A stretch of DNA of 64,000 nt from Thermalbibacter longus (lineage in GTDB: Bacteria; Chloroflexota; Chloroflexia; Thermomicrobiales; Thermomicrobiaceae). The stretch's first letter is position 1. The number at the start of each line of letters is the position of its first letter. The translations under genes were made by a program, and so were the position numbers. The stretch is taken from contig NZ_JAMSLR010000003.1 in the NCBI RefSeq assembly GCF_023806485.1, positions 1 through 64,000 on the forward strand. Reading direction: 5' to 3'. The notes beneath the pieces were generated by a model that searched no databases, was not told where the DNA came from, and saw only the letters and a list, made by a program, of their open reading frames with translations. Positions 40,416-51,377 of the stretch are shown one piece after another.

Positions 40416-40796
40416 TCACTCGCACGGTTCGACGGGGAGGGCGTCCTCGTCGGGCTGGAGGGCAGGCTCGGGCACGGCAGCGAGCCAGATCTCGCCGAAC
40501 TGCCTGAGCTGCTCGACCAGCGGCAGCGCTGCCAGTCCCATCTCGGTCAGGGTGTACTCGACCCGGGGCGGGACCTCGGCAAACTGCCGGCGCGTGATCA
40601 TCCCCGCGCTCTCGAGGTGGCGCAGGCGGTTGGAGAGCACCGCTGGGCTCATGCCGGTCGAATGGAGCAGTTCCTGGAAGCGCCGGCTGCCGTGGCCGAG
40701 ATCGCGCAACAGGAGCAATGTCCAGTGATCCCCGAGCAACTGCGCTGCCCGGGCGATCGGACAGGCTTCCTTCTGCAATGTGTCGCTCCGTCGCAT
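40416..40796 (-). CDS. HxlR family transcriptional regulator
   Basis: This encodes 126 residues with a winged helix: CPIARAAQLLGDHWTLLLLRDLGHGSRRFQELLHSTGMSPAVLSNRLRHLESAGMITRR. The conserved N-terminal cysteine (KEACPIA) is the one used for thiol or electrophile sensing in HypR/QorR-type members, so redox control is plausible. It is divergent from YceI-DoxX-DsbA, and TACAAT (40822-40817) is a likely -10 for its own promoter. The C-terminal tail is acidic. Confidence 0.92.
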   Translation of the reverse strand: MRRSDTLQKEACPIARAAQLLGDHWTLLLLRDLGHGSRRFQELLHSTGMSPAVLSNRLRHLESAGMITRRQFAEVPPRVEYTLTEMGLAALPLVEQLRQFGEIWLAAVPEPALQPDEDALPVEPCE

Positions 40797-40836
40797 GGCT
40801 GGCTCCTCGTACCTGCATTGTAGCGCAAATTCGGAG

Positions 40837-40865
40837 TTGACATGGCGACCCCGGTTCAGTATTAT
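40837..40865 (+). promoter_or_regulatory. Sigma-70-type promoter of the yceI operon
   Basis: TTGACA (40837-40842), a 17-base spacer and TATTAT (40860-40865) form a near-consensus promoter 47 bases upstream of the YceI start. It is the best -35/-10 pair I found in the window. Confidence 0.8.
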
Positions 40866-40877
40866 ATCAGTAGTTGA

Positions 40878-40890
40878 TACGTTTTACGTA
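40878..40890. promoter_or_regulatory. Candidate HxlR operator
   Basis: The inverted repeat TACGT-TTT-ACGTA lies just downstream of the yceI -10 box, where a bound repressor would block initiation. HxlR regulators bind short inverted repeats, so it is a reasonable site for the divergent HxlR protein. Confidence 0.45.
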
Positions 40891-40911
40891 GTAATGGGAG
40901 GGTTCGAGGCA

Positions 40912-41481
40912 ATGCAGCAGAGGACGGTCGCTCCTGAGGTAACCGGCGTCGCCCGCTGGGAGATCGACCCGGTCCACAGCGAGATCGCATTCTCGGTGCG
41001 CCACATGATGGTGGCGACCGTTCGTGGCCGGTTCAATCAGTTCCAGGGGGTCATCGAGTTCGACCCGGCTCACCCGGAGAGCGGTCGAGTCGAGGTGACC
41101 ATCGACGCGGCGAGCATCGATACCCGCAACGAGCAGCGGGACAACCACCTGCGCTCGCCGGATTTCCTCAACGTGGAACAGTATCCGACGATCACCTTCG
41201 TCAGCAAGCGTATCGAGCCGCTGGGGGACAACCGGTTCCGGGTCGTCGGTGACCTGACGCTTCGCGGGGTGACCAGGGAGGTTGCGCTCGACGCTGAGTT
41301 CCTGGGAGTCGGCAAGGATCCCTGGGGCGGCGAGCGGGCTGGCTTCACCGCCCGCACGAAGCTGAACCGGCACGACTTCGGCGCGAGCTGGAATGTGGCG
41401 CTCGAGGCCGGCGGCTTCCTGGTGGGCGACACGCTTGACCTAACGCTCGACATCGAGGCCGTGCGCAAAGAAATAGCGTGA
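40912..41481 (+). CDS. YceI family protein
   Basis: This encodes 189 residues of a lipocalin-like fold that binds isoprenoids or other lipids. Landmarks are WEIDPVHSEIAFSVRHMMVATVRGRFNQFQGVIEFD, IDTRNEQRDNHLRSPDFLNVEQYPTITF and LTLRGVTREVALDAEF. No signal peptide, so it is cytosolic here. The ATG at 40912 follows GGGAGG; earlier in-frame starts lie inside the promoter. It is the first gene of a likely operon with DoxX and the UGA-containing DsbA protein. Confidence 0.93.
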   Translation: MQQRTVAPEVTGVARWEIDPVHSEIAFSVRHMMVATVRGRFNQFQGVIEFDPAHPESGRVEVTIDAASIDTRNEQRDNHLRSPDFLNVEQYPTITFVSKRIEPLGDNRFRVVGDLTLRGVTREVALDAEFLGVGKDPWGGERAGFTARTKLNRHDFGASWNVALEAGGFLVGDTLDLTLDIEAVRKEIA

Positions 41482-41534: not shown

Positions 41535-41921
41535 ATGGATTGGGTCTTCTTGATCGGCCGTCTCGTCTTCGGATTGTTCTTCGTCCTCAACGGGATCAAC
41601 CACTTCGCGCAACTCCGAGGGATGAGCGCCTACGCTGCGTCGAAGGGCGTCCCGGCGCCGCAAGCTGCGGTCATCGTGACCGGGTTGCTCCTTCTTCTCG
41701 GCGGGCTGAGCATCGCGACTGGCTACCAACCGGTGGTCGGTGCGGTGCTGCTCGTCGTCTTCCTGGTACCGGTCGCCTTCATTATGCACAATTTCTGGGC
41801 CGAGACAGATCCCATGTCGCGCGCCAACCAGATGGCCCACTTTTTAAAGAACCTGGCCCTCGCCGGCGCGGCGCTCGCGCTGATGTATGTGCCGACACCG
41901 TGGCCGCTCAGCCTTGGTTGA
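41535..41921 (+). CDS. DoxX family membrane protein
   Basis: This encodes 128 residues with four membrane segments: VFLIGRLVFGLFFVLNGINHF, AVIVTGLLLLLGGLSIATGY, VGAVLLVVFLVPVAFIMHNFW and a last helix near the C-terminus. The pattern NGINHFAQ and HNFWAETDP fits the DoxX family, often linked to quinone or thiol oxidation stress. The ATG at 41535 has GGGGGAGG upstream; an earlier GTG at 41478 would overlap the palindrome. Second gene of the yceI operon. Confidence 0.88.
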   Translation: MDWVFLIGRLVFGLFFVLNGINHFAQLRGMSAYAASKGVPAPQAAVIVTGLLLLLGGLSIATGYQPVVGAVLLVVFLVPVAFIMHNFWAETDPMSRANQMAHFLKNLALAGAALALMYVPTPWPLSLG

Positions 41922-41957
41922 TCGGCATGCTACGGGTAAGACCTCAGGGAGGGGGCG

Positions 41958-42587
41958 ATGCGCATTGAGTTCTTCCACGACGCGCTCTGAGCGTGGTGCT
42001 ACGTGCTGTCGCCCCGTGTGCGGCGACTCGTCACCGAGCACCCGGGTCTCGAGATCGTTCACCGTTGCTTCGCGCTAGCGCCGACACCGGACGCGATCGT
42101 CGCGATCTTCGGCTCCCGCGAGCGTGGCAAACGGGAGATTCTCGAGCACTGGCGGGCAGCCAATCGCCATGACGATGAGCGGCGTATCCAGCCGGATCTG
42201 ATGGCCGCGCGTCCCTTCGATTACCCGTACTCGATGCCCGCGCTCCGGGCCTGTAAGGCGGCCGAGTTCCTCGGGGGTCAGCCGGCGCACTGGGACATGT
42301 TCGATCGAGTGCAGGCCGCGCATCTCACCGAGTGCCGCAACATCGCCGATGACGCTGTGCTCCGCGACTGCGCCGTCGACATCGGGCTCGATCCGGTCGC
42401 GTGGGAACGGTACTACCGGAGCGAGGCCGTGGCCCGTGCCGTTCAGGACGACTTGCTGCGGGCCCGCCAGCTCGGTGTCCACGCGGTGCCGACGCTGGTC
42501 GCCGAGGGACGTGCTGTTCTCTCTGGCGCCCAGCCGTACCCGATCCTGGAACGCTGGGTGAGTGAACTACGCCGCCTGCGGGTGTGA
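41958..42587 (+). CDS. DsbA/FrnE family oxidoreductase, predicted selenoprotein (UGA = Sec11)
   Basis: This encodes 209 residues if the in-frame TGA at 41988-41990 is read. ATG 41958 follows GGGAGGGGG and gives MRIEFFHDAL-U-AWCYVLSPRVRRL; family members have Cys at U in the CxWC active site. The frame after TGA is open for 198 codons and has all DsbA-family features, including the cis-proline loop GVHAVPTLV. Without readthrough the remaining frame would start inside the thioredoxin fold and lack the active site. A hairpin at 42008-42027 follows the TGA. Selenocysteine is the best explanation; a nonsense mutation or sequencing error is the alternative. It is the third gene after YceI and DoxX. 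Confidence 0.8.
42008..42027 (+). promoter_or_regulatory. Candidate SECIS hairpin of the DsbA-like gene
   Basis: GTCGCC (42008-42013) pairs with GGCGAC (42022-42027), loop CCGTGTGC. The loop begins 24 bases after the UGA, inside the range for bacterial SECIS elements. GTG (42003-42005) and CAC (42032-42034) could extend it. The loop lacks G at its first two positions unless one more C-G pair closes, so support is moderate. Confidence 0.45.
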
Positions 42588-42598
42588 GCGGCGCGGGC

Positions 42599-43303
42599 TC
42601 ACTCCAGGTCGACCGCGAGGAACGCTTCGGCCAGCGCCAGGCCGGCCGGGCGCCCTGCCTCCTCCGCCCGCCGGCGTAGCCGCGTTTCCAGGCCGCCGGG
42701 GAACGCGCCGACCTGGGTGGCGTGGAGCCGCAGCGCGGCCAGCTTGCGCTCGAAGACCGGCGCGATGTCGACGAATGTATCTGGTCGATCGGTACCGAAG
42801 AGGAGCACGCGCGGGACCACGTGCGGGCGCAGGCCCTGCGCGAGGTGCTGGGGGAAGAAGGTGGCTAGCCGGCAGGACGGAAAAGCGGCAGCGAGCGCTG
42901 CCGCGCCGACGGCCCGGTGATCTGGGTGCTGGCGGTAGAGCCGGGTCAGCGGGTCGTGGGTCAGCAGCAGATCGGGCCGGAAGCGCCGGATCTCAGCGGT
43001 CAGCCGCTCGCGCAGCTCGAGCGTGTCGAACACCTCGCCGTCAGTGAAGCGAAGGAAGGTGACGCCCTCGACGCCGAGCAGGCGCGCCGAGGCTTCCTGC
43101 TCTGCCTCGCGCACCTGGGTGAAGCCTTCGGGCCGGTCCCACTCCGGCGGTTGCCCCTTGTCGCCGGAGGTCACGACAACGTAGCGGACGACGACGCCAG
43201 CGTCGGTCCAGCGGGCAACCGTGCCGGCGCAGAAGAAGTCGGGGTCGTCGGGGTGAGCGCCGACGATCAGCACGCGCCGGGCGTCCGGCAGGGATCCGCT
43301 CAT
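42599..43303 (-). CDS. PIG-L family deacetylase (second copy)
   Basis: This encodes 234 residues with AHPDDPDFFCAGTVARW near the N-terminus and YRQHPDHRAVG later, the zinc-binding motifs of LmbE-like deacetylases. It differs clearly from the PIG-L protein at 11960-12694. The start overlaps the stop of the beta-lactamase-like gene as TAATG, so the two are translationally coupled. A thiol-cofactor or cell-wall sugar substrate is possible but unproven. Confidence 0.88.
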   Translation of the reverse strand: MSGSLPDARRVLIVGAHPDDPDFFCAGTVARWTDAGVVVRYVVVTSGDKGQPPEWDRPEGFTQVREAEQEASARLLGVEGVTFLRFTDGEVFDTLELRERLTAEIRRFRPDLLLTHDPLTRLYRQHPDHRAVGAAALAAAFPSCRLATFFPQHLAQGLRPHVVPRVLLFGTDRPDTFVDIAPVFERKLAALRLHATQVGAFPGGLETRLRRRAEEAGRPAGLALAEAFLAVDLE

Positions 43304-49880: not shown

Positions 49881-51377
49881 TCAGGACAGCGCGAGCGCCA
49901 GCGTGGTGACTACGCCGGATTGGAGGTCGACCACGCGCACGGCGTGGTTATTGGTGTCGGCCACGTAGAGCACGCCGTCCCCGGCCGAGACGCCGCCCGG
50001 CTCGTAGAAACGGGCCTCCGGGCCGCTCCCGTCCCGCAGGCCCGGCTCGCCGTCGCCCAGCCAGCTCTCGCACCGCCGGGTAGCCGGGTCGAGCCGCTTG
50101 ATCTTGTGGTTGTAGCTGTCGGCGACGTAGAGCATACCGTCGTGCCAGGCCACGTCGAGCGGGTGCTGGAGCCGTGCCTGATCCCCGACCCCATCCACGT
50201 CACCGAAGTCGAACAGCCCGACGCCGACGAGCCGGTGCACCCGGAGATCGTCGCCCGGCGGCAGGTCGACGACGCGGATGGCGCTTGTCTCGCTGTCGGC
50301 GACGTAGAGCACGGTGTCGTCGGTGCTGAGGCCGCTCGGCTGGGCGAACCAGGCCCGGTCGAGCCGTCCGCCCTGGATGCCCTCCATGCCGGAGCCGGCA
50401 TAGGGCGCGAGCCAGCCCTGGTTCAGGTCGAGCGTCCAGATCTGGTGCATGCCGGCCATCGCGATGAAGAGCACGCCGCCGTGGAGCGTGAGTGCCCAAG
50501 GCGAGCGGAGGTCGACCTGGCGGGCCGGCCCTGGCCCAGCGTAGCTCATCCCGAGCCGGCCGGTTCCAGCGATCGTCGTGACCTGCCCGCTCATCAGATC
50601 GACCTGCCGGATGGCGTGATTGCCGGTGTCCGCTACGTAGAGCGTGTCGCCGGCCAGCGCCATCCCCTGAGGATGTCGAAACGCTGCGCTCTCCGCTGGC
50701 CCGTCGGCCAGGTCAGGCTGGCCGCTGCCGATGACCCGGGCCTCGCTCCCGTCTGGCCGGGCGACGACCAGCCGGTGGTGGCCGGAGTCGGCGATGACCA
50801 GCCGGCGGCCGGCGGGGTCGGCCAGCACTTTGCCGGGAAAGGCGAGCGCGCTGTCCGGTCGTGGCAGGGGCCGGAGCGCGGCCACCGGGGAGCGGTCGAT
50901 CAGCCCCTTCGCCTCGTACTCTTCTACCAGCCGGCGGATGACGGCGGCGAGCCCGGCAGCGCTGGCTTCTCCCTCGTGGACGCCCGCGATTCTCCCCTCC
51001 GGATCGATGAAGACCAGGGTGGGCCAGGCGCGCACCGCATAGGTTCGCCAGGTGATCAGTTCGGGGTCATTGACGACCGGGTGCTCGATCTCGTAGCGCA
51101 GGACGGCCTGGCGCACGTTTGCATCGACGCGCTCGGCCGTGAACTTCGGCGAGTGGACGCCGATGGTCACCAGCACGTCGGGGAACTGCCGCTCGACCTC
51201 CCCCAACTGGGAGAGCAGGTGCAGGCAGTTGATTCAGCAATACGTCCAGAAATCGAGAAGGACGACCTTTCCCCGCAGCTCGGCGAGCGTGAGGGGCTGC
51301 TCGGTGTTGAACCAGGCGAGGCCAGGCGGGAACTCAGGCGCCCGTACCTTGCCCAAGCCGGTCAGTCGCTCCCACAT
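49881..51377 (-). CDS. Thioredoxin-NHL repeat protein, predicted selenoprotein (UGA = Sec48)
   Basis: This encodes 498 residues if TGA at 51236-51234 is read. ATG 51377 follows GAGGAG. The sequence is a TlpA-like domain (residues 1-170: [12 protein letters not shown] ... [22 protein letters not shown]), where the NHLRC2-like family has CCINC; UGA replaces the first Cys of CxxC. Other thioredoxin features follow (cis-Pro in [18 protein letters not shown]). From about residue 185 come six NHL propeller repeats ([41 protein letters not shown] and others). A standard caller would start at 51206, after the active site. A good SECIS-like hairpin follows the UGA. Confidence 0.85.
51198..51215 (-). 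promoter_or_regulatory. SECIS-like hairpin of the thioredoxin-NHL gene
   Basis: On the minus strand CTCTCCC (51215-51209) pairs with GGGGGAG (51204-51198) over seven pairs (one G-T), with loop AGTT. The loop starts 25 bases after the UGA and has G at its second position. Distance, stem and loop G all fit the general bacterial SECIS model. Confidence 0.65.

Follow-up and report, generated by a model that had tools for sequence, protein, structure and literature searches.

The gene at 41958-42587 of the window (the whole 64,000-nucleotide stretch of Thermalbibacter longus DNA that was analysed) very probably encodes a cytosolic DsbA/FrnE-like thiol:disulfide oxidoreductase, in which selenocysteine (Sec) at residue 11 replaces the nucleophilic Cys of CAWC and the UGA is decoded by SelB and tRNA-Sec via a downstream stem-loop. 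The UGA itself almost certainly encodes Sec at the catalytic position of this DsbA/FrnE-type thiol enzyme, because the genome contains the Sec machinery, two related species share the same UGA and relatives from many other phyla have Cys in its place.

ATG 41958 opens a frame of 209 codons that runs to the final TGA at 42585-42587, with TGA 41988-41990 as codon 11 and, according to sequence and translation, no other in-frame stop in between. With the UGA read as a residue, the product matched Pfam DSBA over residues 3-198 (2.6e-19; 70.2 bits against a cut-off of 25.6). A preliminary description of this DNA had reported a strong ribosome binding site ahead of ATG 41958, a UGA exactly at the first Cys of CxWC and a DsbA-family domain beyond it; these claims were borne out by the Shine-Dalgarno-like tract preceding the ATG, by the alignment of the UGA with an invariant Cys in the homologues and by the Pfam match, respectively. 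In the AlphaFold structure model (mean pLDDT 96), strand beta-1 comprises residues 2-7, Sec11 lies just before helix 12-27 and residues 11-14 (U-A-W-C) stand at the start of this helix, and Pro178 of the cis-Pro loop is invariant in an alignment of 30 homologues. Beta-1 starts at residue 2, too early for a signal peptide to precede it, which points to a location in the cytosol; the enzyme is most likely a cytosolic selenium-dependent thiol:disulfide oxidoreductase.

Table 1. Features of the predicted selenoprotein gene and its upstream neighbours, in positions of the window.
Feature	Position	Strand	Basis or remark
YceI-like protein, first gene of the conserved cluster	40780..41481	+	Pfam YceI 3.8e-55
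DoxX-family membrane protein, conserved upstream neighbour	41535..41921	+	Pfam DoxX 2.4e-12
Shine-Dalgarno-like tract AGGGAGGGGG, 5' of ATG 41958	41946..41955	+	direct sequence reading
Predicted DsbA/FrnE-like selenoprotein gene, 209 aa, Sec11, motif UAWC	41958..42587, stop included	+	
In-frame UGA, candidate Sec codon, at the first (nucleophilic) Cys position of CxWC	41988..41990	+	
Candidate SECIS, region aligned to the 16-bp hairpin of the orthologues	41992..42027	+	11/16 pairs kept, apex GUC invariant; window alone not significant
6-bp hairpin of the preliminary description, GTCGCC - CCGTGTGC - GGCGAC, alternative local fold	42008..42027	+	no G in the first two loop positions

The genome (3.6 Mb, 99.9% complete) encodes a complete Sec machinery. 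The selC gene scored 75.3 bits against an Rfam cut-off of 47 and was called by ARAGORN as tRNA-SeC(tca), anticodon UCA, and matches over the cut-off were also obtained for selA (531 bits, cut-off 268), selB (346 bits, cut-off 242) and selD (376 bits, cut-off 125). The selD gene has an in-frame UGA of its own, within SCAGUAGK, which we take to be the catalytic site of SelD itself. With selC, selA, selB and selD found and a UGA in selD, the genome therefore has the Sec trait and already uses it, and the missing machinery that the preliminary description had named as fatal to a selenoprotein reading is not the case here. Across most of the order and class, selA occurs. A second selenoprotein gene lies in the window at 49881-51377 on the minus strand and encodes a Thioredoxin_8 (thioredoxin-like) and NHL-repeat protein with the motif CUINC; in the order, almost every genome with a match has a single in-frame UGA in this gene, CUINC was present in the seven loci read and in several cases a short hairpin with an xGUU-type loop follows the UGA.

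Among 80 relatives, orthologues with 66-68% identity were found in two genomes, G011 and G019, from a different genus within the family; each orthologue has a single in-frame UGA, which falls on the same codon as in the window gene and lies within FFHDVLUAWC. Bacterium HR27 (L059) carries the G019 gene and is apparently the same genome as G019. Comparison of substitution rates, which had been proposed beforehand as a check across the TGA, gave a dN of about 0.28 and a dS of 1.2-1.4 downstream of the UGA between the window gene and either orthologue, and a dN of 0.10 and a dS of 0.55 between the two orthologues, so that dN/dS was about 0.2 in all three pairwise comparisons; dN lies far below dS and the frame past the UGA is therefore under purifying selection. 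The position of the UGA, kept in two diverged orthologues and aligned with an invariant Cys, is far beyond chance. When 400 sampled genomes of the phylum were searched for the DNA pattern FHD[x]L-UGA-x-W, only the window genome and G011 matched, and the reversed control of the pattern gave no matches in the same sample; the Sec form is therefore rare and not widespread.

A scan of 84,980 species genomes yielded 36 loci with close homologues, those in other phyla of bacteria and archaea having 43-65% identity. By record title and tree label, they were assigned to Bacteroidota, Ignavibacteriota, Kryptoniota, Bacillota, Coprothermobacterota, Thermotogota, Spirochaetota, Calescibacteriota and several archaeal groups. 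Every site-covering locus outside Thermomicrobiales, i.e. all but HR27, has Cys at the UGA position of the window gene, in the 36-locus scan as in the alignment of 30; one locus that ends before the active site (L091) was left out of the Cys/Sec comparison. Alignment at residue 11, which the preliminary description had also suggested, thus gives Cys in the homologues and UGA in G011 and G019. The second Cys is absent in two homologues (CAWA in L064 and CAWS in L075) that keep the first one, and the Sec position is therefore the less dispensable of the two. Upstream of the UGA, the stretch EFFHD[VA]L is conserved from archaea to Bacteroidota. In the maximum-likelihood tree the three Sec forms make up one clade with a support of 97/98, which is consistent with a single Cys-to-Sec change in the window lineage. 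Judged from the sequences, the gene and its homologues represent a Sec/Cys pair at the nucleophile and we reject a pseudogene, because the UGA is kept in orthologues, the frame is constrained past the UGA and homologues in other phyla have Cys. No NCBIfam family is specific to this subgroup; a scan of 30 homologues gave matches to generic models only, or to models whose cut-off the homologues are not known to reach. In one Cys homologue, from the archaeon Candidatus Pelearchaeum (L081:4001-4606), a TAG replaces the Trp codon of CAWC (CA-TAG-C) in a frame that is otherwise open, and this TAG may stem from a point nonsense mutation or an error in sequencing, or it may be an amber codon that is translated as an amino acid. 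More distant DsbA-family genes of the same class also have a UGA at the first Cys (UPWC in L031:1501, UPYC in L032:1501 and UPYC in L038, minus strand), which suggests that Sec may have been recruited several separate times among the DsbA-like enzymes of the class.

The bacterial SECIS model places the element 16-37 nt from the UGA, with a G within the first two loop positions (PMC13188914), and our search rule asked for these two features together with a loop of 3-9 nt and a stem of at least 4 bp. Both orthologues agree with the published model through a 16-bp stem with one bulge, an 8-bp upper stem and, 17 nt downstream of the UGA, an apex of GUC, and pairing is kept at every difference between the two stems. 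The 45 nt from the UGA of G011 fold at -35.5 kcal/mol, better than 1000 of 1000 synonymous recodings, and the fold from the UGA in G019 is marginal by the same kind of recoding (p ~0.05). In the window, the fold 3' of the UGA is ordinary (p = 0.13-0.18, synonymous-codon shuffles); two of the orthologue stem pairs that it keeps are kept through changes on both sides, and the covariation over the three sequences is not significant, being reached by 65 of 500 shuffles. The hairpin that the preliminary description had put forward as a possible SECIS does exist where it was placed (GTCGCC 42008-42013, loop 42014-42021, GGCGAC 42022-42027), with the loop 23-24 nt after the UGA, but it does not stand out as a SECIS, given the ordinary fold of the region and the finding that hairpins at least as good as the best of the window under the loose rule follow 47% of the codons sampled from window ORFs. 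A SECIS homologous to the hairpin of the orthologues is plausible in the window, unproven and the weakest link of the case.

It is extremely improbable that a Cys codon (TGC/TGT) has mutated to TGA in a gene that is decaying. A decayed copy is found at the same place in G018, a congener of the orthologue-bearing species, and the gene is patchy among relatives: three congeners of the window species, each with selA, gave no match. It is therefore an accessory gene, and one that can be lost. However, real decay looks different, since in G018 the frames are shifted and scrambled and the UGA and its flanks are no longer recognisable, with the YceI-DoxX neighbourhood kept, whereas in the two orthologues, at a dS above 1 from the window gene, the TGA is retained, dN is much lower than dS and there is no further lesion. 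The preliminary description had counted the single TGA in an otherwise intact frame against a pseudogene, and disabling mutations downstream in relatives would have spoken for one; the frames of G011 and G019 are intact and constrained, and the decayed G018 copy is a loss in another species with no bearing on the intact genes. The copies of the window, G011 and G019 appear nothing like decay.

Nor does the UGA seem to end translation. A shorter protein could begin at GTG 42003, where an ORF of 194 aa is present, or the UGA could be a regulatory stop, but we regard a true stop as very improbable, as the product from GTG 42003 would lack beta-1 and the whole active site, the ribosome-binding site belongs to ATG 41958 and the conserved stretch upstream of the UGA would be left outside the protein. 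The weak SECIS of the window would fit near-cognate readthrough that inserts Cys or Trp rather than Sec, a reading that is hardly credible in a genome with a complete Sec machinery and other UGA genes (selD and the NHL-repeat protein), in which UGA is the normal stop of both the DsbA-like gene and DoxX, and at a site that is the redox nucleophile.

Read as a selenoprotein, the product has its closest solved structures in YjbH (6gho/6ghb) and Deinococcus radiodurans FrnE (DR_0659; 5cnw/5xwh), with DsbM (5hfg) close behind. YjbH and DsbM, the best and near-best structural matches, belong to the same fold class at about 25% identity, and unlike the window protein neither is known to be a selenoprotein. 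YjbH is an Spx adaptor and DsbM a glutathione-linked reductase; among the papers searched, none was found on DsbM with glutathione. FrnE likewise has a cytosolic DsbA-like fold without signal peptide and a CxWC site, and matched the window protein both by profile (1.5e-20) and by structure (4.2e-10). However, the window protein is shorter and only about 23% identical to FrnE, has Sec and Ala in place of the Cys and Pro of CPWC, and its translation does not contain the C-terminal CxxxxC extension of many FrnE proteins, a motif that some FrnE proteins also lack (PMC8945050). FrnE is cytosolic, has disulfide isomerase and insulin reduction activity and, in the presence of NADPH and thioredoxin reductase, is able to reduce DTNB; an frnE mutant shows sensitivity to both cadmium and diamide (PMC8945050). 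By analogy, the window protein would be expected to use a selenolate nucleophile in reducing or rearranging disulfides, and Cys14 to act as the resolving residue. Membership of the Rcas_1661 family of thioredoxin-like (seleno)lipoproteins (NF041057) was rejected: it is also a UxxC selenoprotein family with weak profile similarity, but the window protein reached 27.9 bits, far under the 190-bit cut-off, and has no signal peptide, in contrast to a lipoprotein.

The gene follows that for DoxX by 36 nt, and the DoxX ORF is open from GTG 41478, with GGGGAGG preceding ATG 41535. The order YceI-DoxX-DsbA is common to the window, G011, G019 and G018 (in the last with the decayed DsbA copy), and the DoxX neighbour is 75-80% identical in these three genomes. 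DoxX also adjoins three Cys forms, all from Bacteroidota or Ignavibacteriota, directly upstream in L073 and L085 and about 0.7 kb upstream in L063. On the strength of gene order only, DoxX may therefore be functionally linked to the DsbA-like protein. In mycobacteria, DoxX is reportedly part of a membrane-associated oxidoreductase complex. In the Bacteroidetes genome of L063 (2327-5021), two Cys-form copies with 60% and 44% identity flank the DoxX gene, and a DoxX_2 gene comes after. A second conserved context was seen in L068, L069 and L070 (mostly Bacteroidota), where the Cys form lies between genes for a LigB-type extradiol dioxygenase and a 2-hydroxyacid dehydrogenase. Downstream in the window, a PIG-L/BshB-like deacetylase is encoded on the minus strand (42599-43303), with proteins about 75% identical near the cluster in G011, G019 and G018. 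Bacillithiol as the reductant, an idea prompted by this adjacent gene, was rejected, since the PIG-L protein is well under the BshB cut-offs and in the window genome BshA gave no match over the cut-off and BshC no match.

In the mechanism that we propose, SelB and tRNA-Sec would decode the UGA, directed by the stem-loop directly 3' of it, the selenolate of Sec11 would attack a substrate disulfide, Cys14 would resolve the selenenylsulfide and the thioredoxin pool would reduce the enzyme, which may be functionally coupled, in thiol or oxidative-stress defence, with the membrane protein of the adjacent DoxX gene. A more far-reaching and doubtful idea is that YceI-DoxX-DsbA forms a redox module, in which the cytosolic (seleno)DsbA would connect thiols of proteins or small molecules with the membrane by electron transfer through DoxX, perhaps as far as quinone, and through a YceI protein that binds isoprenoids, with the nucleophile upgraded to selenium in this lineage.

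DsbA-like UxxC selenoproteins (COG2761) were reported from the Sargasso Sea in 2005 (PMC1088965) and again in 2006 (PMC1794560), and a review of 2026 lists a "DsbA-like protein form 1" with PF01323 and UxxC (PMC13188914). The window protein shares with them the PF01323 domain, Sec as the first residue of CxxC, a bacterial Sec machinery and Cys homologues. As far as the descriptions go, it is set apart by UAWC in a tight subfamily (EFFHDVLCAWC) in which the other members found are Cys forms, by a Chloroflexota-type lineage of the Bacterium HR27 group and by the YceI-DoxX neighbourhood. The apparently new points are the occurrence of UAWC within this subfamily, the lineage, DoxX as a conserved neighbour and the wide range of Cys counterparts. 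Standard annotation would miss such a gene or label it as truncated, because the entire active site is lost when the UGA is taken as a stop. The gene offers a clear replacement of Cys by Sec at the nucleophile of a widespread and uncharacterised cytosolic DsbA subfamily of bacteria and archaea, an enzyme tied to DoxX by gene order in several phyla, and the matched Sec/Cys enzyme pair could be used to test the contribution of selenium.
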